Source of the DNA: an uncultured Ectothiorhodospiraceae bacterium
Lineage (GTDB): Bacteria > Pseudomonadota > Gammaproteobacteria > UBA9214
Reading direction: 5' to 3'
Length of the DNA: 45,836 bases
Assembly (NCBI GenBank): GCA_947258845.1
Contig: CAMYJZ010000015.1
Location: 1-45,836, forward strand
The translations under genes and the position numbers were made by a program. Within the stretch, counting starts at the first letter, position 1. The number at the start of each line of letters is the position of its first letter. The notes below the pieces were generated by a model. The model made no database searches. It was not told where the DNA came from and worked only from the letters and a program-made list of their open reading frames with translations. Of the stretch, positions 18,218-44,734 are shown piece by piece.

Positions 18218-18522
18218 ACTTCGCTCCAAGCCCATGTAATTATTTAACAATTCAAATCGAGACCACCTGGTATACCGGACGATTGCAGCGACCGGGTACC
18301 GGCATGACAGCGGGCAATCACCCCATCATACGCCAGGCTTGATGGACGCCGACACCCGGCCGGGGAGACGACTGCACGCTTGTTCACGCAACCCTGGCAG
18401 ACCGGCAGGAAACACGATTTTTCATGGACCGGGAAATATTCCGCAGAAAATTTTCGCCACTCGTAGTAGACTCTCCCCAGTCCGGCGGCCTAGAATTGGG
18501 TTTAAGTACATCAGGAATCCGA
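18218..18522. other. Divergent intergenic region
   Basis: This 305-base gap separates the hypothetical gene from the divergent ParA-type gene and should hold both promoters. AGGA at about 18512 is the ParA ribosome site. No convincing promoter pair or repeat was found. Confidence 0.5.
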
Positions 18523-19230
18523 ATGATTAAAAAGATCGTTGTCATCAACAGCAAGGGGGGATGCGGCAAGACTACCCTGTCCACCAACCTGGCGAGCTAT
18601 TACGCTGCGCACGGGTACCCCACTGCCCTGTTCGACTACGATCCGCAGGATTCTTCCACGCGCTGGCTTGAACAGCGGCCCGGGCACCTGCCGGGAGTCT
18701 ACGGTATAGCGGCCGCGCACCAACCGGAAGGAAACGTCACCCGCTCATTCCAGCTGCGCGTACCGCCCGGAACACAGCGCCTCATCCTGGACACCCCGGC
18801 CTCCCTGAAACGCATGGAGTTGATAGAGATCCTGCGCGATGCCTGGGCCATTATTGTACCCATCCTGCCTTCAACCATAGACTCCTGCGTAACCTCGGAT
18901 TTCCTCCAGGACCTCGGCAAGGAGGTGCATCTGCATGCCCCCGAGGCCTCGATTGCGATCGTGGCCAACCGGGTACGGCGCAACACCCGCGCGTTCCAGA
19001 CGCTGATGAAGTTCCTCGCAGACAAGGACATGTCGCCGGTGGCCTGCCTGCGTGATTCGCAGAACTACGTGCAGGCGGCAGCTGAAGGCATGGGCATCCA
19101 TGACATGAAGGCCAATATTACGCGCGTGGACCGGGAGCACTGGAAGAGCCTGATCGACTGGCTGGAAACGGAATCGCTGAGCTCGGACGCCGATTCCCTT
19201 GCCAGCGAGCAACACCTCAGCATCGCCTGA
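18523..19230 (+). CDS. ParA/MinD-family ATPase
   Basis: A 235-residue P-loop ATPase with the deviant Walker A motif NSKGGCGKTT (signature Lys11, catalytic Lys16). The switch I region reads FDYDPQDSSTRW, and a Walker B-like RLILDTPAS follows. It is near the minimum length for small ParA proteins. No ParB gene is nearby, and the gene is far from a recognisable origin, so plasmid or chromosome partition is unlikely. It ends convergently beside a chemosensory operon with a soluble receptor. Rhodobacter PpfA, a ParA homologue, positions cytoplasmic chemoreceptor clusters, so a similar role is possible. The ATG at 18523 has AGGA upstream; the longer frame from 18424 is not supported. Confidence 0.85.
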   Translation: MIKKIVVINSKGGCGKTTLSTNLASYYAAHGYPTALFDYDPQDSSTRWLEQRPGHLPGVYGIAAAHQPEGNVTRSFQLRVPPGTQRLILDTPASLKRMELIEILRDAWAIIVPILPSTIDSCVTSDFLQDLGKEVHLHAPEASIAIVANRVRRNTRAFQTLMKFLADKDMSPVACLRDSQNYVQAAAEGMGIHDMKANITRVDREHWKSLIDWLETESLSSDADSLASEQHLSIA

Positions 19231-19262: not shown

Positions 19263-19601
19263 CTACAGCTCAACCGGCATATAGAAGAACACGAAACGTC
19301 CCTGTTCGATGACCACCTTGAGGGTCGCACCGTGACTCAAGCCGTAATCAACATACCCCGGCACGGCGCTGTCCTGGTGGCACTCACTGGCATGCTGCGG
19401 TGATTCGAAGTCCCGATCGCGGTCATACCAGGCCAGCAGCATGGCATCACCCAGGTGTTCTTTCGCGACGCTATCGGCCAGGGTCATGGCTGCGCGGTAA
19501 TCGCTGACGAATTGCAGCGGGTTGATGTCGATGACTGCCAGGGCAGCGTCATCGGGTAGTGACGGCAAGGGGCAAGCGGGTGTTGGAGGGTCGTTAGGCA
19601 C
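19263..19601 (-). CDS. Hypothetical protein, DUF5619-like
   Basis: A 112-residue soluble protein following the diguanylate cyclase gene. It has a helix (LQFVSDYRAAMTLADSVAKE), then LLAWYDRDRDFESPQH with a short His/Cys-containing stretch, and a C-terminal segment GYVDYGLSHGATLKVVIEQG followed by a hydrophobic strand. From memory this end resembles DUF5619 proteins; the match needs a search. The GTG at 19601 is preferred because AGGAAG lies just upstream; a TTG at 19703 would overlap the cyclase gene. It is probably the last gene of the chemosensory operon. Confidence 0.6.
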   Translation of the reverse strand: MPNDPPTPACPLPSLPDDAALAVIDINPLQFVSDYRAAMTLADSVAKEHLGDAMLLAWYDRDRDFESPQHASECHQDSAVPGYVDYGLSHGATLKVVIEQGRFVFFYMPVEL

Positions 19602-19681: not shown

Positions 19682-20983
19682 TCAGGCGCTGGCTTCCATA
19701 CAATCCTCGTTGAAGACCTCCACCCTGTCACGGCCGTTGCGCTTGGCGGCATAAAGGGCCGTATCGGCCTCCTTGAGCAGCTTTTCAAAGTCGATATGGC
19801 GTTCGCCCTGGTAGATGCTGGACACTCCGAAACTGGCACTGATCTCCAGGTCATCAGGCTGCAGTTCACGGATAAACCGGCAGAGGTGCTCGGCCTTGTA
19901 AATCGCGTTTTCAAGGTCGCAGCGCGGCAACAGTATGATGAACTCCTCGCCGCCGAAGCGGGCCACCACGTCCTCTTCCCGGCAACGGGACGACAGCATG
20001 GCGCCGATCGCCGCAAGCACCTTGTCACCTGCCGCATGGCCATGGGTGTCATTGATGTTCTTGAACTTGTCCAGATCCACCATCAGCAGGCTGAGCGACT
20101 CGCGGTGACGGATGGCGCTGCTGACATACTTTTGCGCCGTCTCCGCCAGGTAGGTCCTGTTGTACAGACCGGTCAACTGATCAGTGACGGCCAGTTTGCG
20201 CAATTCGTCCTGTTGCGACCTGACCTGGTCGAACAACTGCTTGTTGATGATGAGGTTTCCCAGCCGCGCCTTGAACTCGTCGTCCACGATTGGCTTCTCG
20301 ATATAGTCATTGGCGCCCGAGCGCAGGATTTCAACCCGACGCGACAAGTCCTCGTGCCCGGAAACGGCCAGCACCGGGATCTCGCGCTTGTCGGCAGCGG
20401 CTGAACGTATACCACGCACCACGTTCAGGCCGCTCATCTCGCCCTCCAGCACAACATCGGTCACCACCGCGTCGTAGTCCTGCTGCACGAAGGCCTTCAG
20501 GGCCGCCTCGCCGGTGCTGTAATGGTCCACATCCAGACCCATCTCGTTAAGGATGCTGATGGTCAACTGGGCCGTGGTCGGACTGTCCTCCACATACAGC
20601 ACCCGTCCACTACAGGTCCGGCGCAGGCGATTCACCAGGAAAGTGAAGGCCTTCTGAAGTTCCTCGATACTGGTCTTGCGCATCACCTCGGTGACACCGG
20701 CCCCGTAGGCCATTTTCAGGGTTGCCCCGGCGTCCTCGGAGGTCAACAGCACGATGGGCAACAGACGCGTCTCCTCGTCATTGCGCAGCTGCCGGCAGAA
20801 TTCCAGGCCGTCCATGTCCGGCAGATGGAGGTCGAGCGAGATCAGGTCGAATGTCTCCTCGGCCAGGGCAGCCAGGCCCTCCTCGGCCGACTCGACCAGC
20901 CGCACCTCCACCTCGAGTGCCTCCAGTACCAGGCCAATCATCTCCCGGTGGATCTTGCCGTCATCAATAACCAGTGCTTTCAT
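19682..20983 (-). CDS. PleD-like diguanylate cyclase (REC-REC-GGDEF)
   Basis: A 433-residue response regulator. REC1 (about 1-120) has phosphoacceptor Asp51 (LISLDLHLPDMDG), but the conserved Lys is followed by Thr (MRKTS) rather than Pro. REC2 (about 126-245) has Asp176 (VVTDVVLEGE) and the usual EKP. The GGDEF domain (about 260-430) has the active GGEEF motif (344-348) and an RxxD inhibitory site (REED, 335-338), so it should make c-di-GMP with product inhibition. As last regulator of a Wsp-like operon it occupies the WspR position, but WspR has one receiver while this has two. GGGAGA lies 7 bases before the ATG. Confidence 0.94.
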   Translation of the reverse strand: MKALVIDDGKIHREMIGLVLEALEVEVRLVESAEEGLAALAEETFDLISLDLHLPDMDGLEFCRQLRNDEETRLLPIVLLTSEDAGATLKMAYGAGVTEVMRKTSIEELQKAFTFLVNRLRRTCSGRVLYVEDSPTTAQLTISILNEMGLDVDHYSTGEAALKAFVQQDYDAVVTDVVLEGEMSGLNVVRGIRSAAADKREIPVLAVSGHEDLSRRVEILRSGANDYIEKPIVDDEFKARLGNLIINKQLFDQVRSQQDELRKLAVTDQLTGLYNRTYLAETAQKYVSSAIRHRESLSLLMVDLDKFKNINDTHGHAAGDKVLAAIGAMLSSRCREEDVVARFGGEEFIILLPRCDLENAIYKAEHLCRFIRELQPDDLEISASFGVSSIYQGERHIDFEKLLKEADTALYAAKRNGRDRVEVFNEDCMEASA

Positions 20984-21042
20984 CTTATTTCTCCCGATGC
21001 CGGGTCATTGTTCCAGGTGCTGTTTGCCTTGAAATTTCACTG

Positions 21043-22131
21043 TCACGCCGACTGGTTTCCCAGGTCTTTCGTGGTGCCTGTTTGCCTTGCTGCCACTTCA
21101 CTCAGGTAGGCCGCCATGTCTTCAAGTCGTACGATGCGGTCAACGGCGTCCAGGCTCAGCGCCGTCTCAGGCATGCCATAAACGACGGAACTTTCCCTGT
21201 CCTGGACGATGGTGTGGCAGCCTGCCTTGCGCATGCGCAGCAGGCCTTCGGCCCCGTCAACACCCATGCCGGTCAGCAGCACGCCCAGGGCACTGCCCTG
21301 ACAGCTGGCCGCGATCGATTCCAGCAAGGGGGTACTGGAGGGACAGAAGCGGTTGACCGGTGCGCCCTCGACAAGTGCCGAGACCATCTGCTGGCCGCGT
21401 CGTTCAACTCTCATATGGCGTTCATCCGGCGCAAAATAGACCACACCGGGGCGCAATTCCTCAGCGTCAGTGGCCAGTTTGAGCTCAAGCTGCACCGACT
21501 GTTGCAGCCATTGAATCAGCCCTTTCATGTAGCCGGTCGAGATGTGCTGGACGATCACCACCGGTACCGGGAAATCGACCGGCAACCCCGGAAGGATCGC
21601 CTCGAGTGCCTGCGGGCCACCCGTGGAACAGCCGATGCCGACCACCTCCAGGGGTTTACGGGTTACGTTGATCTGCCTTGGCGGGACTGGCCGCGCTATC
21701 CGGCGGGCCTGGCGATTGATGCGGCGCAGCACCCGCAGGCTGGCCATGGCGCGCACCGTATCGACCAGTTCCCAGCAGGTATCCGCATGGTCCTGCGTGC
21801 CCAGGCCACCGGGTTTCTCAAGGACTGCCAGCGCGCCTTCATCCAGTGCGCGAAAGCTGATCTTCGCCTCCTCGTCGTTGACATTGCCGGACACCACGAC
21901 AATCGGGGTCGGCTGCTCCTCCATGATGCGGCGGGTTGCCTCCAGACCATCCATGACCGGCATGCGGATATCCATCGTGACCAGATCGGGTTTGAGCTGC
22001 CGGGTGAGGCGCACGACCTCTTCCCCGTTGCTGGCATGCCCGATCACCTCGATGTCGGGCTCGCACTCGAGTATCGACCGGAGTATCAGTACAACGGTCT
22101 CGGAATCATCAGCAATCAGCACACGTATCAT
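21043..22131 (-). CDS. cheB: CheB-type receptor methylesterase (WspF-like)
   Basis: A 362-residue protein with an N-terminal receiver (Asp54 in VTMDIRMPVMDG) and a C-terminal methylesterase domain. The catalytic triad is visible as Ser169 (GIGCSTGGPQ), His196 (VIVQHIS) and Asp292 (TGMGVDGAEG). It should remove methyl groups from receptor glutamates, or deamidate glutamines, when phosphorylated by CheA, giving adaptation. It lies between cheA-REC and the diguanylate cyclase gene, as wspF does in Pseudomonas. In Wsp systems loss of this gene locks the cyclase on. Confidence 0.95.
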   Translation of the reverse strand: MIRVLIADDSETVVLILRSILECEPDIEVIGHASNGEEVVRLTRQLKPDLVTMDIRMPVMDGLEATRRIMEEQPTPIVVVSGNVNDEEAKISFRALDEGALAVLEKPGGLGTQDHADTCWELVDTVRAMASLRVLRRINRQARRIARPVPPRQINVTRKPLEVVGIGCSTGGPQALEAILPGLPVDFPVPVVIVQHISTGYMKGLIQWLQQSVQLELKLATDAEELRPGVVYFAPDERHMRVERRGQQMVSALVEGAPVNRFCPSSTPLLESIAASCQGSALGVLLTGMGVDGAEGLLRMRKAGCHTIVQDRESSVVYGMPETALSLDAVDRIVRLEDMAAYLSEVAARQTGTTKDLGNQSA

Positions 22132-22174
22132 CTGTTACCCTGGGCCTGATGTGTTTCAGCCGCCGCAACGGCAA

Positions 22175-24475
22175 TCAAATATAACGCTGCACCACCTCCA
22201 GCAGCGCATGCGTTTCGAACTGGCCCTTGACGATATAGGCATCCGCACCCACCTCGATGCCACGCTGCTTTTCGGCGTCCGCGGCGAGGGAAGAAACGAT
22301 AATTACCGGTATATCGGCCAGATGTTCGCTTTGCTTAATGCGCTCAGTAAGCTCGAAGCCGTTCATACGCGGCATCTCGATATCCGAGACCACCAGGTCA
22401 AAGCGCTGGTCCTGCAGGGTTTCCCAGGCCTGCTGCCCGTCGTTTGCCACGGTGACGTCGTATCCCTGGTATTCAAGTATGTTGCGCTCCAGGGTACGGG
22501 TAGTCAGCGAGTCGTCCACGATAAGCACGTGAGGTGTAACCACTTCCTCCTCGAGCATGGATGAGCTCAGCACCGGGGTGCCGGCCGTTGCGCTCAATGC
22601 CGTTTCAATCAGGTCACCGACATTAAGCACCATCATGATGCCGCCGCTCCCGGTCAGGGTTGCACCGGTAATATTGCTGACCGAAACCAGCGGCCGCGTC
22701 AGCGGCTTGATAACGATTTCCCTCTCCCCGATCACCTCATTGACCACGAAGGCCACCATACGCCATCCCTTCGAGACCACGACGACGGGCAGACGCGTGT
22801 TATCGGTATACTCGTCTCCATCCAGTCCGAGGGTGGCACCCAGTTCACGCAATGGCACCGGGCGCTTGTTGACCAGGATCACCTGCCCGGCCGCCACATC
22901 GGCAATCTCCTCGGGCAGCAGGTCGAGAATGCGTTCTACCGATACACTGGGTACGACGAACTTCTGGCGACCTACACGAACCTGGAGCCCACGTTCCGTG
23001 GTCAGGGTGAGCGGCATACGCAAGATGAAACAGGCACCCTGGCCGGGCTCGGATTCGAGCTGCACACCTCCCTTCAGATCAGAGAGGTTCTCGTACACCA
23101 CATCCAGCCCGACCCCACGGCCGGATACCGTACTTACCGATTCCCTGCTGGAGAAACCGGGACGGAAGACCAGGTCCAGCAGCTCCCTTTCATTCATGCC
23201 TTCCAGCTCGACCGGCTTGATGAGTTTTTTTCTGAGCGCCGCCTCGCCGATGTGTCGGGGATCAACACCGACGCCGTCATCGCGTACGCTGATAATGATT
23301 TCCCCGCCTTCACAATGCACATCGATGAAGATATTGCCCTCCTCCGGCTTGCCCGACGCGCGCCGCTCAGTCGGCAGCTCGATGCCGTGATCGATGGCAT
23401 TGCGCAGCAGGTGCACCAGCGGGTCGCGCACCCCCTCGAGTACCACCCGGTCCATCTCGACGTCGTCACCCGAGATATGCAGGGTGACCGATTTTCCCAG
23501 ATCGCGCGCCAGGTCACGCATCGGCCGCAGCAGCGGCCTGAGCACGGTGGCAACAGGCACCAGTCGCAGCATGCGTACTTCAGACTGGAGCGAGGATGAC
23601 ACCAGACCCACACGGTTATGCGTGACCCGCATCTGCTTCTGCATTTGCGACGTGATCCTGCCCAGTGAGGCAAACGCCTCACTGTTGCTGACCAGCAACT
23701 GGCGCAGATCCTCGGGCAGCGCCGCCTGGTTCTGCATCCTCAGGCACTGCGAATTTGACCAGGTCCGTGACAGGGCATTGATATCACCCAGTATGTTCTG
23801 CATGCCACGGAACTGTTCATGCAGTCCTATCTTTGCAACCTGCAACTCCTCGGCCAGGGCCGACACCCTGTCCAGCTTGTCGGTTGTCACCCGGACCACC
23901 TCCACGCCGCCCGGGGCGTCATCCCGGCCACCGACAGGCACCGGGGACCCCTGTTCTTCCTGCGGCGTGGCCTGTTGCTCAGGCCGGGCAGCGGTATCGG
24001 CGGGCTGCTCGGACATATCCGGTTCCGGGACCTGCAGCGACACCGCTTCCGGCTCACCTTCGGGTGTGGATGGATGGCAGGACGCCTGTTCCAGACGGCT
24101 CAGCAGGGACTGCATATCGAAATCGGCCCCGGCTCCTGCGTCAAACGCCCTCATGGCCTGCCAGGTCTTGTCGATGGCCTCGAGACAGAGGTCGATCACG
24201 CCGGCAGACGGGGGACTGTTGCTTTCCTTCAGGGTGCTGAGCAGCGACTCCAGCTGATGGGCAATGTCTGCCACGCCCGTGATGCCGACCCCACGCGCAG
24301 CCCCCTTGATGTTGTGTGCCGAACGGAATATCCGCTTGAGTATTTCCTGGCGCGCATCGGCCTGCTGATGCTTCTCCAGTCGCAGCAGGCCCTCGGTAAT
24401 CGCCTGCAGCTGTTCATCGAGTTCCACCCGGAAGGTCTCAAGCAGCTGCTCCATCAGTTTCGGATCGATATCCAT
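22175..24475 (-). CDS. cheA: Hybrid chemotaxis histidine kinase CheA-REC (WspE-like)
   Basis: A 766-residue kinase. It has an Hpt domain (about 1-105, phosphorylated His54 in RSAHNIKGAA), then a variable acidic/Pro-rich linker (about 110-190) with no recognisable P2 domain. A dimerisation segment is followed by the ATPase domain, with the N box HLLRNAIDHGIELP and the G boxes DDGVGVD and GRGVGLDVV. A CheW-like domain (about 500-635) and a C-terminal receiver (Asp698 in VVSDIEMPRMNG) complete it. The fused receiver is typical of WspE and other non-flagellar CheA proteins. It should phosphorylate the REC-REC-GGDEF protein and CheB, with its own receiver as a sink or modulator. AGGA lies 7 bases before the ATG. 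Confidence 0.95.
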   Translation of the reverse strand: MDIDPKLMEQLLETFRVELDEQLQAITEGLLRLEKHQQADARQEILKRIFRSAHNIKGAARGVGITGVADIAHQLESLLSTLKESNSPPSAGVIDLCLEAIDKTWQAMRAFDAGAGADFDMQSLLSRLEQASCHPSTPEGEPEAVSLQVPEPDMSEQPADTAARPEQQATPQEEQGSPVPVGGRDDAPGGVEVVRVTTDKLDRVSALAEELQVAKIGLHEQFRGMQNILGDINALSRTWSNSQCLRMQNQAALPEDLRQLLVSNSEAFASLGRITSQMQKQMRVTHNRVGLVSSSLQSEVRMLRLVPVATVLRPLLRPMRDLARDLGKSVTLHISGDDVEMDRVVLEGVRDPLVHLLRNAIDHGIELPTERRASGKPEEGNIFIDVHCEGGEIIISVRDDGVGVDPRHIGEAALRKKLIKPVELEGMNERELLDLVFRPGFSSRESVSTVSGRGVGLDVVYENLSDLKGGVQLESEPGQGACFILRMPLTLTTERGLQVRVGRQKFVVPSVSVERILDLLPEEIADVAAGQVILVNKRPVPLRELGATLGLDGDEYTDNTRLPVVVVSKGWRMVAFVVNEVIGEREIVIKPLTRPLVSVSNITGATLTGSGGIMMVLNVGDLIETALSATAGTPVLSSSMLEEEVVTPHVLIVDDSLTTRTLERNILEYQGYDVTVANDGQQAWETLQDQRFDLVVSDIEMPRMNGFELTERIKQSEHLADIPVIIVSSLAADAEKQRGIEVGADAYIVKGQFETHALLEVVQRYI

Positions 24476-24514
24476 GCTCAGTCCTGTCGCCTCCCTGTCT
24501 GTATCAACAGCATG

Positions 24515-26065
24515 CTAGAACTTGTAGGCATTGGCACTGTCGCGCAGCTGATTGGCCAACTGTCCCAGGTCCTCGGCCGCTTCCCGCGTCTGCTTGGTGG
24601 CACTGACAAACTGCGATGTTGCACCGTTGATGTCACCCATTGCGGTGGTGATCTGGTCGATCCCGGTGGCCTCCTGACGGACCGAAGCCGCGATCTGCTG
24701 GCTCGCCAGGGCACTCTCCTTGATCACCTCGGTCAGTTTGCGCACGGTTGTGCCTGCCTTGTTGACCAGGCTCATGCCTTCATCCACACCCTTGCTGCCC
24801 TCTTCCGTCACCATCACCGCCTTGTCGGTGGCATGCTGGATCTCCTGTAGAATGGAATTCACCTGTTCGGTCGCCTGCTGGGACTGTTCCGCAAGGTTCT
24901 TCACCTCGGCCGCCACCACTGCGAAACCCTTGCCGGCATCCCCGGCCTTGGCGGCCTCGATAGAGGCATTCAGCGCCAGCATCTTCAGCTGATGCGCCAG
25001 ATTGCTGACCGTCCCGGTAATCTCGCCGATCTGCTGGGTCTGCTCACTCAGCGCCAGGATGTTCTCGGCGATACCTTCCACCTTTTCACGGATCGATTTC
25101 ATACCGGAAACCGTCAGCTCGACGGACTCCATGCCTTTCTCGCCTTCCTTGCGCGTGCGCTCTGCCGTTGAACCCAGCGCCTCGGCCTTCTCCCGTGTTT
25201 GCATCGAAATAGCCCGGATTTCCTCCAGCGTGGTGGTCGCCTCGTTGACGGCTGCGGCCTGTTCCGATGCCCCGGAGGACTGGGTACTGACGGTTCCCAG
25301 CATCTGGTTCAGGGTGACCGACATACTGTTGCTGGCCTCGCTGGTCTGGCGTGCCATGGCAGACAGGCTTTGCGTCATGGTATTGAGGTGGGCCCCCAGC
25401 TGCCCCAGGTCATCATCGCCGCTGACCTCTATGCTCTGGGACAGGTCGCCGGTCGCGACACTTTCAATGAAATTGCAGTATTGAACCACCGTATTTTCAA
25501 TATCATCCTTGGACAGGGAAACGCTCTTCAGGTCCATCATGACGGCGTTAATATAGGTATCGATGGCCAACTGCGCATCGAAGGTGAGGATCTTGTTCAC
25601 GGCCGTGACCGCCTTCAGCGCCTTGCCGGTGTTGAAGCGGTATTTCCTGTTGATCAGCGGGTAGATCAGCTGTGAATATACACTGTAGCTTCCCAGGTAC
25701 CAGCGCGGCGTCAGCCCGATCTTGTTATGCACGATGCCGATCTTCAGCCGGCGCTCCACGTAGGCATTGCCGTAATCACCGTCGAACAGTTCCAGCAGGT
25801 ATTGCTTCTGCGCAGCCTTCAGTCGGTCGATCGATGAACCGGCATCGCGGATGATCGAGATCAGTTCGTCGTAGCGCTCGATATTGCTGTAAAAGCCGTC
25901 GACAATGGCGTCGGCGTTCTCCTGGATCAGCGGCTTCAACTCGCGCAGCAGCTGGACATCCTCCACGCCGAAATCGATAAATGCCTTGCGCGACTGCTGC
26001 TCTGCATGGTCAATCCCCATGTGCCGCACAAGTTCGCTGCCCTGTTCCATCATGTTTGCTGCCAT
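24515..26065 (-). CDS. Soluble globin-coupled methyl-accepting protein (HemAT-like)
   Basis: A 516-residue receptor without membrane segments. Residues about 20-175 form a sensor globin. IVDGFYSNI carries Tyr59, aligning with distal Tyr70 of Bacillus Hem[22 protein letters not shown] carries His113, aligning with proximal His123. A HAMP-like linker (about 185-240) leads into a coiled-coil signalling domain whose hairpin tip (about 365-395) is fully conserved ([19 protein letters not shown]). It should bind heme and respond to O2, CO or NO, or to redox state. Candidate methylation Glu/Gln pairs lie around 265-305. There is no C-terminal pentapeptide for CheR tethering. AGGAGA lies 6 bases before the ATG. 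It sits where no receptor lies in the Wsp operon, which starts with membrane-bound WspA. Confidence 0.94.
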
Positions 26066-26104
26066 CGTTTTTCTCCTGATACCAGGTCAGCCTGCGCCGA
26101 CCGA

Positions 26105-26698
26105 TTAACTTACATTCAGCACCGGGTCGCTGAACAATGACTCCATATCCAGCATTGCAACCCGACCCCTGTAGATTCCACGTATGTGCCGCAGGTCACG
26201 GACCCCTCTCGCCGGCAACGGCGTGTCGAGCTCGCTGGCCGCGTATTCATCATTGCCGATCACCTCGTTCACCAGTATCCCCGCCTGCATCCCCTGCGCC
26301 CTCACCACGATGATGAGCGCGTCTTCTGCGTAGTCCTCGTCACGCGCCGGACGGAAGAATTCCTTCAGATCCAGCACCGCCAGCATCTCACCGCGACGGT
26401 TTCTCACCCCCAGCACGAATCCCGGGGAGCCCGGCACAGGACAAATGCTGCCGGCGTCCATGATCTCTTCAACATGGGTATAGGGAATCCCGTAGTGCTC
26501 CTGTGCACCCAAACGGAAGCGGATATAGGGCTCCTGCACCAGCGTCGCCTCATCCGCGACCGCTGACTGCGCAAACACCTCGGCGCGCTCATGCATCACC
26601 CTGCGTGCCTGACTGGATTCCGGCATCCAGGAAGCCTGGTGCTCCGCGACTTCAGAGGATTCCGCAATTTCCGGTTTTCTTGATGATCTGCCACTCAT
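26105..26698 (-). CDS. cheW: CheW-like coupling protein with N-terminal extension (WspD-like)
   Basis: A 197-residue scaffold protein. The CheW domain spans about 55-195 (IRFRLGAQEHYGIPYTHVEE ... VLGVRNRRGEMLAVLDLKEF ... ILVNEVIG). The first 55 residues are a charged extension including MHERAEVFAQSA, as in WspD-type proteins. It should link the receptor to CheA. Its ATG overlaps the cheR stop (ATGA), and the receptor gene follows after 39 bases. The operon has two distinct CheW proteins, a Wsp-like trait. Confidence 0.93.
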   Translation of the reverse strand: MSGRSSRKPEIAESSEVAEHQASWMPESSQARRVMHERAEVFAQSAVADEATLVQEPYIRFRLGAQEHYGIPYTHVEEIMDAGSICPVPGSPGFVLGVRNRRGEMLAVLDLKEFFRPARDEDYAEDALIIVVRAQGMQAGILVNEVIGNDEYAASELDTPLPARGVRDLRHIRGIYRGRVAMLDMESLFSDPVLNVS

Positions 26699-28233
26699 GG
26701 TGACGACTCCGCAGCGGAACTGCTGTAGATATCAATTTCCCTGCGCAGGACTTCCGCCATGCGCCGGCAGGTCATATCAGGGGCGCCGTAAATGGTGCAT
26801 TCCGGATCACAGGTCTCGGCGATTTCCAGTGCATTCACCAGGCTTTTCACGCCCTTGTCACGCTGGCCCTGCCGCAGTTGCAGCAGGCCGAGCTGGTGAT
26901 GCGCCTCCAGGAACCGGGGGTCGATATACAGTGACTTGCGCAGACCCCTCTCGGCAGCACCCGGATCACCGCGCTCGATCAGGACCAGGGCATGGAGAAA
27001 ATGGGCATGCTTGTCCATCGGCTTCAGCAGCGTGGCCTGCCGGGACAGTTGCCGGGCCTCCTCGAGGCGACCCAGGTTGGCAAGGGCGGCGGCCTTGTGC
27101 AGCAGTAGCGCAGCATTCTCACCCTGCCCGGCAAGGTAACGGTCTGCCGCCACCAGCACCTCGGTCCAGCGTTGCCGTGCAGCCAGGCGGGCAAGCGTCT
27201 CCAGACTGTCTTTATTGTCCAGTGTTGATTCACCCGGTGTTGACTCACCCGCCGATGCCTCTTCACGGGATGCCGGTTCCGGCACATCACCCGCGTCGCT
27301 GGTGTCGTCCAGCCATCCGGACTCCGGCGCGCCTGCCGGTTTGGCCGGGTCCGCTCCCGTGCGCCGGAAGTAAAAGACACCCCCGGCCTGCTGCAATTCC
27401 AGCCCGTCAATGTCGGTGTTGATCAGGTCGGCCCCGCCCAGTATCAGGATTCCCCCGGGTACCAGGCAGCGGACGAACTTTTCCATCACGGCCTCGACGG
27501 TCGCGGCATCGAAGTAGATAAAGACATTGCGGCACAGGATTAGATCCATCGCATGCAGGCCACTGCTGATCGTCGGGAATTCATCCTCGACCAGGTTCAG
27601 GTAGGAAAAATTCACCATGGAGCGGATTCCATCCCGCAACTGGAATTCATTGTCGATACGCCTGAAATAGCGCTCGCATACCGCCACGGGCGTGGCGCGA
27701 AATGACCACGTACTGTAGCGGGCCGCGACGGCGGCAGTCAGGGCCTCGGCATTGATATCGGTCGCGCGCAGTTGCAGGTTCCACTGCGACAGTTCAGGGA
27801 TCATTTCGTGGAGCATGATCGCCAGGGAATAGATCTCCTGACCCTGCGAGCTACCGGCACTCCAGACGCGGATAGAACCGCGCCGACCCTTTCCCCGTTC
27901 CAGAAGTTGCGGCAACCACCCCGTGCGCAGGAAATCCATCTGACCCTTGTCCCGAAAGAAGTAACTCTCGCCGACGGTGACGTTGGCGACCAGAAATTCC
28001 ATTTCCGGGCTGTCCTTGCTGCATGCGTGGAGTCGCCGGATATAGTCATCGGCTTGCGCATAGCCGAAACGGGCGACCGCGCGCTGCAGTGTGGTACGCA
28101 GTTCGTTACGCTGGTGCTCCTGGATGACGATGCCGGTACGCGCACGCAGGTAATCGCACAACTCCAGCTCCTGCTCCCGGGTCACCGGCCGGCAACCGGC
28201 GCGAACATCAGACAGGCAGCTTGCGCCCGTCAT
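26695..28233 (-). CDS. cheR: CheR-type receptor methyltransferase with TPR domain (WspC-like)
   Basis: A 512-residue protein. The CheR domain (about 15-295) has VGESYFFRD, the SAM-binding stretch RVWSAGSSQGQEIYSLAIML, LRATDIN and LILCRNVFIYF. A Pro/Glu/Ser-rich linker (about 300-340) leads to tetratricopeptide-like helices (about 340-480, for example LLLHKAAALANLGRLEEARQ). It should methylate receptor glutamates using S-adenosylmethionine. The TPR tail is characteristic of WspC. Start and stop both overlap the flanking cheW genes by four bases (ATGA), so the three are translationally coupled. Confidence 0.94.
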   Translation of the reverse strand: MTGASCLSDVRAGCRPVTREQELELCDYLRARTGIVIQEHQRNELRTTLQRAVARFGYAQADDYIRRLHACSKDSPEMEFLVANVTVGESYFFRDKGQMDFLRTGWLPQLLERGKGRRGSIRVWSAGSSQGQEIYSLAIMLHEMIPELSQWNLQLRATDINAEALTAAVAARYSTWSFRATPVAVCERYFRRIDNEFQLRDGIRSMVNFSYLNLVEDEFPTISSGLHAMDLILCRNVFIYFDAATVEAVMEKFVRCLVPGGILILGGADLINTDIDGLELQQAGGVFYFRRTGADPAKPAGAPESGWLDDTSDAGDVPEPASREEASAGESTPGESTLDNKDSLETLARLAARQRWTEVLVAADRYLAGQGENAALLLHKAAALANLGRLEEARQLSRQATLLKPMDKHAHFLHALVLIERGDPGAAERGLRKSLYIDPRFLEAHHQLGLLQLRQGQRDKGVKSLVNALEIAETCDPECTIYGAPDMTCRRMAEVLRREIDIYSSSAAESSP

Positions 28234-28760
28234 GCGGATTCCTCGATACCACCATCATCAGGCGCCCCGGGGCTGCGCATCCCGCCCGGTTCGATCGCGA
28301 TTACCCGCTCCATGCACAGCACTTGGGATTGCCCGAAGAGGGTCTGCACAGTTCCATTCAGCAGCAGGCCGGCATTATCGAAGGCGGGCGTCTGTTGCCA
28401 GGCATCACGTTCCAGGGTTTCAACACCAATGACCTTCTCGACAATCAGGCCGGTCTGCAGCCCCTCGTGTTCGCACAGCAGTATCGGCGTCTCCAGGGTA
28501 CAGCGGGTATATCCGCCATAGCCGAGGCGGGCCGCCAGGTCGATGACCGGAATGCTTCGGCCGTGCAGGTTCATCAGGCCACGCAGGTAACGGGGGCTCC
28601 CGGGAACCGGCTGCAATTCCATCAACGGCAGCACCTTGATGACGTTCTCCAGCGGCGCGCAGAGCCGCATCCCCGGGATCATGAACTTCAGTACCTCGAC
28701 ACCACCCGCCTGGACGGCGGCCTCGAACTGGCGTGATGCGAATTGTGCGGGTATTTCCAT
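28230..28760 (-). CDS. cheW: CheW-like coupling protein (WspB-like), first gene of the operon
   Basis: A 176-residue CheW protein (MIPGMRLCAPLENVIKVLPL ... YLRGLMNLHGRSIPVIDLAA ... TGLIVEKVIG). It should join the soluble receptor and CheA in a signalling array. The ATG at 28760 is chosen because GAGG lies 8 bases upstream; a TTG at 28772 is in frame but falls on that site. Its stop overlaps the cheR start (ATGA). A sigma-54-like promoter lies about 85 bases upstream, so this should be the first gene of the operon. Confidence 0.93.
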   Translation of the reverse strand: MEIPAQFASRQFEAAVQAGGVEVLKFMIPGMRLCAPLENVIKVLPLMELQPVPGSPRYLRGLMNLHGRSIPVIDLAARLGYGGYTRCTLETPILLCEHEGLQTGLIVEKVIGVETLERDAWQQTPAFDNAGLLLNGTVQTLFGQSQVLCMERVIAIEPGGMRSPGAPDDGGIEESA

Positions 28761-28846
28761 GGCATACCTCAAAACAGGACAGTACCTGCCACCTCGTCAA
28801 TGTTCTGACGAATTGACCGGATTTATTGATCATTGTGCTAACTACG

Positions 28847-28861
28847 GCAAATTACATGCCA
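28847..28861 (-). promoter_or_regulatory. Candidate sigma-54 promoter of the chemosensory operon
   Basis: On the minus strand the sequence TGGCATGTAATTTGC matches the -24/-12 consensus TGGCACG-N4-TTGC at 10 of 11 fixed positions. GG and GC are exactly 10 bases apart. Transcription would begin near 28836, giving a leader of about 75 bases before cheW. If real, an enhancer-binding activator is needed. Confidence 0.6.
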
Positions 28862-28920
28862 GCCTGAAGGGAAATGGCCGGAATCTGCGCATTTGGCAGG
28901 ACTTCACGCGAATATCGGAC

Positions 28921-28935
28921 CCGTGGATCACACGG
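28921..28935. promoter_or_regulatory. Palindrome upstream of the sigma-54-like promoter
   Basis: CCGTG-GATCA-CACGG is a perfect inverted repeat about 60 bases upstream of the -24 element. The distance would suit an enhancer-binding protein site. The assignment is only positional. Confidence 0.3.
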
Positions 28936-29203
28936 CGCAGCTAGACGGATTGTCGGGTATAATGTTTTTTTAACCGAATTATCAGTTAGTTATGGCGCAC
29001 TGCCGGCGCGCTGCCCAGTGATCGGCCGGCCACAGGGCCAATCGCCCTGAGCTTGCCCCGCTAACCGGGGATTGCCTGGCCTGACAACGGCCTCCAGGCC
29101 CCGACATGACTGATAATTGACGATCAACAACCCGCAGATGATCCTTAATGAGCAACGCCAGCCCGCCTGACGTATCAACCACTAGCCTGAGAGATCCCAC
29201 CCC

Positions 29204-43678: not shown

Positions 43679-44734
43679 ATGGCCACTATCGTAGTCGTTG
43701 ATGACCAATTAACCAGCCGGCAAATACTGGTCCACTTGGTAAGCGGAATCGAGGACGAAGCGGATGTACAGTCGTTCGCCAACCCGATCGAAGCACTGGA
43801 CTGGTCAATAAGAAACAAGGTGGATCTGATACTCACGGATTACAAGATGCCGGAAATGAACGGTTTAGACTTTATCCGGAAGTTCAGGGCAAACCCTGCA
43901 TGCGATCATGTCCCTATTATCATGGTGACATCAGTAGAAGACAGGAATATCCGTTACCAGGCGCTTGAAGCCGGCGCCACCGACTTCCTGATGAAGCCCG
44001 TTGACCATAACGAGTGTCGGGCCCGTTGCCGGAACCTGCTAACCCAGCACCAGCAATACAAGATCATCCAGGACCGGTCGCACTGGCTGGAACGCCGTGT
44101 TGCCGAGGCCACCAGCGAGATTCGACTACGCGAAAGGGAAACCCTGCTCCGCCTGGCCAAGGCAGGCGAATACAGGGACGAGGAAACCGGTAATCACGTA
44201 GTACGCATGGCCAAGTTTGCCCGCGTCATCGCAGAACAGATGGGATACACATCCGAGGAGGCCGATGTCATTGAAATGGCGGCACCAATGCATGACATTG
44301 GAAAAATTGGCATCAGGGATGACATATTACTGAAACCGGGGAAACTGACTACTGAAGAATTCGAGATCATGAAGCGGCACACACTGATCGGCCACGAAAT
44401 ACTGAAGGACAGCCCCTCCAAGTTCCTGCAAATGGGCGCAGTGATCGCGCTCAGTCACCATGAAAAATTTAACGGGGCAGGGTATCCACACGGGCTGAAG
44501 GGCGAGGACATCGCCCTGCCGGCAAGAATCGTTGCCATAGCAGACGTTTATGACGCGCTCGTGTCGGAACGGCCCTACAAACACGCCTGGTCCATGCAGG
44601 AAGCCCTTGATTACATGGATACACAACGCGGCCTGCACTTCGATCCGGAGTGCTACGACGCGTTCAAGGCCCAACTCGATACCGTCATGAAAATACAGGA
44701 TATGCTTACTGACATAAAAGTAAGCCATGGCTAA
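43679..44734 (+). CDS. RpfG-type response regulator with HD-GYP c-di-GMP phosphodiesterase domain
   Basis: A 351-residue regulator. The receiver domain (about 1-120) has Asp54 in LILTDYKMPEMNG and the Lys in LMKPVD. The HD-GYP domain (about 155-345) has GNHVVRMAKFA, the metal-binding HDIGKIGI (His205, Asp206), HTLIGHEIL and the signature HHEKFNGAGYP. All residues expected of an active enzyme are visible, so it should hydrolyse c-di-GMP when its partner kinase phosphorylates it. The ATG at 43679 is preferred, with GAAGAG upstream; a longer frame from 43643 adds nothing conserved. No kinase gene is adjacent. Confidence 0.94.
   Translation: MATIVVVDDQLTSRQILVHLVSGIEDEADVQSFANPIEALDWSIRNKVDLILTDYKMPEMNGLDFIRKFRANPACDHVPIIMVTSVEDRNIRYQALEAGATDFLMKPVDHNECRARCRNLLTQHQQYKIIQDRSHWLERRVAEATSEIRLRERETLLRLAKAGEYRDEETGNHVVRMAKFARVIAEQMGYTSEEADVIEMAAPMHDIGKIGIRDDILLKPGKLTTEEFEIMKRHTLIGHEILKDSPSKFLQMGAVIALSHHEKFNGAGYPHGLKGEDIALPARIVAIADVYDALVSERPYKHAWSMQEALDYMDTQRGLHFDPECYDAFKAQLDTVMKIQDMLTDIKVSHG

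Follow-up and report, generated by a model that had tools for sequence, protein, structure and literature searches.

Globin-coupled cyclases and phosphodiesterases are described in reviews as single proteins, and chemosensory systems of the alternative cellular function (ACF) type as working with membrane receptors, among which the stimulus of WspA has been called a mystery (PMC8846402). Globin methyl-accepting chemotaxis proteins (MCPs) of demonstrated function serve flagellar aerotaxis (PMC13401364), and a protoglobin-HAMP-MCP is known in a flagellar che operon, namely Agrobacterium MCP514 (PMC8466855). Globins are mentioned neither in a survey of clusters with CheR-TPR and GGDEF regulators (PMC3447774) nor in a survey of Wsp systems (PMC8552884), and in the open-access literature searched we found no account of an ACF or Wsp-like cluster with a globin receptor. 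Here we analyse such a receptor, encoded in a seven-gene chemosensory operon at 19682-28760 of a 45,836-nucleotide (nt) stretch of bacterial DNA, which we call the window. The single parts of this operon are known, while their combination and its spread are new within the literature searched. We consider it probable that the operon specifies a cytoplasmic ACF-type array with a dedicated globin receptor, in which a gas signal, most likely O2, gates the synthesis of cyclic di-GMP (c-di-GMP), with adaptation.

The window is contig 15 of a gammaproteobacterial metagenome-assembled genome (MAG) of 2.35 Mb and 94% completeness, whose closest named relatives, in the same genus, are the MAGs 'uncultured Ectothiorhodospiraceae bacterium ES_Gamma_050' and 'Gammaproteobacteria bacterium 13_July_SF_Bin31'. 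Read down the minus strand from 28760 to 19682, the operon encodes a first CheW in the position of WspB (28230..28760, 176 aa, ATG at 28760; Pfam CheW 2e-22), a CheR methyltransferase with C-terminal TPR repeats that overlaps each neighbour by 4 nt (26695..28233, 512 aa; Pfam CheR 3.6e-44 and TPR families), a second CheW in the position of WspD (26105..26698, 197 aa; Pfam CheW 2.9e-25), the soluble globin receptor (24515..26065; Pfam Protoglobin 1.2e-43, MCPsignal 6e-35), a CheA with a C-terminal receiver (22175..24475, 766 aa; Pfam Hpt, HATPase, CheW and REC), a CheB methylesterase with REC and catalytic domains (21043..22131, 362 aa; Pfam CheB_methylest 1.3e-56) and an output regulator with REC-REC-GGDEF architecture (19682..20983, 433 aa; Pfam GGDEF 5e-44). 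All seven open reading frames (ORFs) are present and intact, with each domain far above its Pfam cut-off, and the spacing between consecutive genes (-4, -4, 39, 39, 43 and 59 nt) is consistent with one operon. Neither CheY, CheZ nor a transmembrane receptor was found in the cluster by Pfam and a transmembrane-helix check. The original prediction, made from the letters of the window, had named these components and placed a HemAT-like receptor without membrane helices between the second CheW and CheA; ORFs and Pfam bore out the list, and Pfam, PDB and fold matches the receptor. Its broader proposal, a full chemosensory operon with a globin receptor, a diguanylate cyclase output and CheR and CheB for putative adaptation, is likewise supported by the gene content. 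The same gene set occurs in the two other MAGs of the genus at protein identities of 70-91%, and the presence of the operon in these two independent MAGs and in other families rules out a one-off or chimeric MAG artefact. Within the genus no other protein of the operon is as well conserved as the receptor, at 91% identity versus 70-85% for the others, which suggests that the sensor is the constrained part.

A protoglobin domain (residues 20-174) opens the receptor, followed by a HAMP domain at about 186-235, of which Pfam covers the second half (201-235), and an MCP signalling domain at about 236-516, with no transmembrane helix anywhere; it is a globin-coupled sensor in that a Protoglobin domain is fused to a signalling domain. 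The globin-MCP layout first proposed for it thus stands, except that the HAMP after the globin had been overlooked, the class being protoglobin-HAMP-MCP of the 40H type. To our knowledge, HemAT of B. subtilis has no recognised HAMP. By sequence, the best PDB match of the receptor is the HemAT sensor domain (E about 3e-25), and Foldseek with an AlphaFold model also ranked HemAT first (root-mean-square deviation 1.2 A, 35% identity, 149 columns). This model, with a mean pLDDT of 53.7 overall, is confident in the globin domain only, so we draw no claim from the remainder except a helix-loop-helix at the HAMP. When nine receptors were aligned with E. coli DosC, the proximal His113 and the distal Tyr59 were invariant, and the position of HemAT Thr95 was Ala in both the window and DosC and Thr, Ala or Val among the homologues. 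The window receptor thereby shares its heme-pocket residues with DosC, and it is this invariant Tyr together with Ala that makes O2 the likeliest ligand. E. coli Tar is a 36H receptor, and relative to it the signalling hairpin has a 14-residue insertion in each arm (+14/+14), which puts the window receptor in the 40H class, like WspA-type receptors. The signalling tip of the globin-receptor clade differs from DQTNLLSLNAAIEAEKAGEYG of WspA, and that of the window receptor is also unlike the tips of flagellar globin MCPs and of PilJ. HemAT and MCP514 are soluble globin MCPs as well, and MCP514 resembles the window receptor further in being a protoglobin-HAMP-MCP encoded within a che operon, but both serve flagellar chemotaxis and MCP514 is 36H (PMC8466855).

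The enzymes that would act downstream of the receptor retain their functional residues. Motif inspection found Hpt His54, the N box, the G box and a complete receiver all intact in CheA, and the motifs CSTGGP, VQHI and GMGVDG, and with them the catalytic triad motifs, intact in CheB. The acidic, Ser/Thr and Lys residues of phosphorylation are kept in both receivers of the output regulator, which has a GGEEF active site with an RxxD inhibitory site five residues upstream (REEDVVARFGGEEF at 335-348) and is, by these signatures, a predicted active diguanylate cyclase. Apart from CheB, it is the sole response regulator of the operon. PleD is its best PDB match and has the same REC-REC-GGDEF architecture, the difference being that the window regulator keeps phosphorylation residues in both receivers; PleD acts in a two-component cell-cycle pathway. 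The globin-coupled diguanylate cyclases E. coli DosC, PccDgcO and BpeGReg also join a globin gas input to a c-di-GMP output, but each does so as a single protein, with no kinase array and no methylation-based adaptation. The operon's cyclase is one among many in its host, given 17 GGDEF matches in that genome; G004, a relative from the genus that is scored as 100% complete, has 25.

With the globin-HAMP region as query, matches came from 4 of the 369 genomes that sampled the class, from 9 of 398 for the phylum and from 4 of 48 for a further class. Taken together, 13 genomes carry a close homologue, and they span six families and three classes of Pseudomonadota. The order CheW-CheR-CheW-receptor-CheA surrounds the receptor in 13 of 13 homologues, two of the clusters being cut by contig ends, and the receptor is exclusively conserved together with this kinase family. 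Other globin matches that we inspected were mostly GGDEF or EAL fusions or flagellar-type MCPs, and when plasmids were searched for named globin-ACF examples, identity in the globin did not exceed about 37%. The expectation that no example had been described holds for publications in the open-access library. The array itself is no one-off, and its recurrence in 13 genomes suggests a genuine branch of bacterial gas sensing that has yet to be described. A c-di-GMP gene (GGDEF, EAL or HD-GYP) lies in or beside 10 of the 13 clusters; the stretches read of L040 and L136 hold no c-di-GMP enzyme, and the contig of L131 ends too early. The output of the window genus is REC-REC-GGDEF. Clusters L129, L130 and L132 have a REC-HD-GYP gene ahead of the operon, followed after the operon by GAF-PAS-GGDEF-EAL in L129 and REC-GGDEF in L132, and in L133-L135 the regulator is divergent and combines REC with GGDEF domains (by Pfam, REC-PAS-GGDEF-EAL in L134). 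The L136/L157 globin cluster has a cyclic-nucleotide output in place of c-di-GMP. The REC-REC-GGDEF neighbour in L133, which belongs to another class, is 45% identical to the window regulator at full length (427 residues), versus 35% in the C-terminal part for the next best match in the set, which ties this output to the globin array across classes.

How this array relates to Wsp, the system to which it was first assigned, is a question of both gene order and phylogeny. Among about 50 related clusters that we extracted from Gammaproteobacteria, other Pseudomonadota and named plasmids, two gene orders dominate: the canonical Wsp order, with a membrane receptor first and REC-GGDEF last (L098-L102, L104, L106, L107 from Cupriavidus metallidurans and L167 from Mesorhizobium japonicum), and the order CheW-CheR-CheW-receptor-CheA-CheB-regulator found in the window, L088, L090, L103, Azospirillum L109 and others. 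The original prediction saw in the operon WspB-C-D-E-F-R with WspA replaced, and a canonical Wsp system of this kind, of Wsp lineage and with surface-linked c-di-GMP, would explain why the window shares with Pseudomonas WspABCDEF-R two CheWs, CheR-TPR, CheA-REC, CheB, a 40H receptor, a GGDEF regulator and the lack of CheY and CheZ. However, canonical Wsp forms its own 100/100 clade, with the window outside, in both of our kinase trees (one of concatenated CheA core, CheR and CheB, the other of CheA alone with flagellar references), and WspA receptors stand apart at 100/100 in a tree of receptor signalling domains. The window falls instead in a kinase clade supported at 99/97 that holds 12 globin systems and three membrane-receptor systems (L088, L092 and L103 share its CheA clade), and the receptor tree unites the 13 globin receptors with those of L092 and L103 and the second receptor of L136 (100/99), placing flagellar-type globin receptors elsewhere, with Tar. 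Receptor tips and kinases thus fall in matching clades. The Wsp receptor gene is first, whereas that of the window is fourth of seven; the Wsp receptor is the membrane four-helix-bundle WspA, whereas ours is a soluble globin-HAMP protein; and WspR is REC-GGDEF, whereas the window regulator, which had been likened to it, is REC-REC-GGDEF. Kinship with Wsp survives at the level of a superclade (92/85 in the CheA tree) that takes in globin clusters, membrane-receptor clusters and Wsp alike, and the hypothesis that Wsp and the window's clade are tied more closely was not rejected by an approximately unbiased (AU) test (p 0.18). With canonical Wsp membership rejected by three trees (two kinase, one receptor) and a receptor tip that also differs, a Wsp system with WspA swapped for a globin receptor is very unlikely and largely refuted already. 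The position of the receptor gene between those likened to wspD and wspE, which had seemed a special feature, is the ordinary gene order here: the operon belongs to an ACF-type clade whose receptor gene normally sits between the second CheW and CheA. In keeping with the ACF type, its cluster contains a multidomain response regulator and CheR-TPR (PMC3447774), and its CheA belongs neither to the flagellar clade nor to that of type IV pili. The membrane-receptor ACF clusters (L088, L090, L092, L103 and Azospirillum ramasamyi L109) have the same CheW-CheR-CheW-MCP-CheA-CheB order and differ in having receptors with transmembrane helices and other sensor parts. A single origin of the globin systems is not rejected by the AU test (p 0.43), nor is it established, because three membrane-receptor systems lie inside the clade and its forks are open. 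A Wsp-like c-di-GMP cluster from the literature that is not Wsp either, chemosensory cluster 2 of Halomonas titanicae, also has a 40H receptor, CheR-TPR, CheA-REC and a two-receiver GGDEF protein, but in another gene order and with Hpt-REC-REC-GGDEF (PMC5907407). Clusters of that type in our set (L143 and L144) pair membrane receptors with CheAs that fall in a clade of their own; we rejected this type for the window on the CheA placement and on a regulator without Hpt.

A receptor of this kind might instead serve aerotaxis, by flagella or type IV pili, and lie in the operon by chance, as the known globin MCPs HemAT and Agrobacterium MCP514 serve flagellar taxis (PMC13401364, PMC8466855) and the host has a PilJ/ChpA system. 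The host encodes exactly two MCPs, of which one is the window receptor and the other a PilJ-like protein of 691 aa next to a ChpA of 1860 aa, together with two CheAs, and G004 has two MCPs as well; FliG is absent from all three genomes of the genus and from G252, and present in seven other genomes having the globin system. Given these counts and the missing FliG, only one kinase is a plausible partner for the receptor, and the cell has no means of flagellar taxis. In the CheA tree the flagellar references, from E. coli, Salmonella, Vibrio and Photobacterium, make up a clade of their own (98/82), and the window CheA does not group with them, a result that would have gone against the original prediction had it come out otherwise. 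Flagellar aerotaxis was rejected on the missing FliG, the CheA placement and a cluster without CheY or CheZ, and given also a tip unlike those of flagellar globin MCPs and PilJ and the adjacency of all 13 homologues to this CheA family, an aerotaxis role of either kind is highly improbable. It is also conceivable, though unlikely, that the array answers to something other than O2, be it NO, CO, sulfide, the redox state of the heme or a non-gas such as an alcohol. HemAT binds CO and NO besides O2 (PMC13401364) and is reported to sense ethanol without heme (PMC7542364); its distal Thr is replaced by Ala in the window and varies among A, T and V in the homologues, and L136 couples a globin receptor with a nitrate/nitrite (NIT) receptor. 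The distal pocket of Tyr plus Ala nevertheless agrees with that of DosC, which senses O2. The variety of outputs among homologues (Hpt proteins, CheY-CheC, a REC3-nucleotide cyclase) raises the further prospect that the main target of CheA lies elsewhere, with the GGDEF protein a side branch and the c-di-GMP link indirect; we think this quite unlikely for the window, where the REC-REC-GGDEF protein is the only regulator besides CheB and has phosphorylation residues in both receivers. Several observations do weigh against a gas-sensing array that drives c-di-GMP. A globin fold alone is not proof of heme or of O2 as the physiological signal, and a consensus methylation site is matched only in part. 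Moreover, the output of L041 is CheY with CheC and PAS-GGDEF, not a direct REC-GGDEF; the distant member L040 has Hpt-type proteins and, in the stretches read, no GGDEF; and in another distant member, L136 (genome G426), a REC3-class III adenylate/guanylate cyclase lies downstream (L157:2164-3972, plus strand).

In the array that we favour, with a dedicated globin receptor gating c-di-GMP synthesis, heme iron on His113 would bind a diatomic gas; O2 is the likeliest, and Tyr59 would donate a hydrogen bond to it. The change on binding would be relayed through the HAMP to the 40H tip, setting the activity of CheA. Phosphate from CheA would then reach CheB, the receiver on the kinase itself and the REC-REC-GGDEF protein, the last of which would make c-di-GMP. 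CheR-TPR and CheB would adapt the receptor, such that output would track changes in gas level and not the level itself. Heme binding and the identity of its ligand are inferences on our part, as are the response sign, the phosphotransfer routes, adaptation and physiology, and for all steps past a globin with conserved heme residues we draw on knowledge of these protein families. In a host without a flagellum, the likely role of the array is to let oxygen or redox conditions decide whether the cell commits to attachment or gives it up. The links from globin to c-di-GMP that we found in the literature are all single proteins reading ligand level; an array adds amplification, cooperativity and adaptation, and c-di-GMP could therefore follow the rate of O2 change. 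If so, organisms of oxic-anoxic interfaces would have an adapting, not level-reading, control of c-di-GMP by oxygen. Looking across the clade, we put at roughly even chances the wider proposal that an old, undescribed ACF branch turns a cytoplasmic gas signal into second messengers, using one globin receptor-kinase core in three classes of Pseudomonadota and exchangeable outputs (REC-REC-GGDEF; REC-GGDEF with REC-HD-GYP; CheY-CheC-GGDEF; a cyclic-nucleotide cyclase). For c-di-GMP-linked chemosensory systems as a group the physiological stimulus is still being sought, and the window receptor has a defined candidate chemistry, which makes its input controllable in vitro. Culturable members with the globin array are likely to exist.

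The surroundings of the operon offer a few further observations. A DUF5619 small protein gene (19263..19601, minus strand, Pfam 3.6e-25; start uncertain, the ORF can reach 19703) is possibly the eighth gene of the operon: the ORF shares nucleotides with the 3' end of the regulator gene, and both genus relatives have a counterpart in the same place at 74-79% identity. Convergent with the operon lies a gene for a ParA/MinD-like ATPase (18424..19230, plus strand; Pfam CbiA/ParA), at 85% identity in the same position in both relatives and absent beside the other globin clusters examined; it may help to position the array, in the manner of ParC/PpfA, or have nothing to do with the operon. The presumed promoter region is the 443-nt stretch before a divergent EamA transporter gene (28761..29203), which holds no strong sigma-70 consensus. 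Some 15 kb from the operon and on the other strand, the window encodes a REC-HD-GYP response regulator (43679-44734, plus strand), a probable c-di-GMP phosphodiesterase with 36% identity to the product of the REC-HD-GYP gene that precedes globin cluster L129. In most globin clusters outside the window genus, a gene for an Hpt-like protein of about 140 aa lies directly 3' of cheB (L129:14645-15064, L134:14992-15405, L041:4555-5004, L157:1532-1960). One fragment of a globin receptor with an in-frame TAG, in the f207 group (L137, G432:C1:66058-66537), has no che genes recognised nearby and is possibly a globin system in decay. CheY, a CheC-like phosphatase and a GGDEF protein close both L041:2589-5004, a globin cluster, and L103:6560-8500, which has a membrane PAS receptor, so that the same output module is joined to different inputs. 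Finally, at L136:9719-13615 the globin receptor is followed by a second receptor with the same tip type and a nitrate/nitrite sensing (NIT) domain, and it is possible that the pair senses two electron acceptors jointly.

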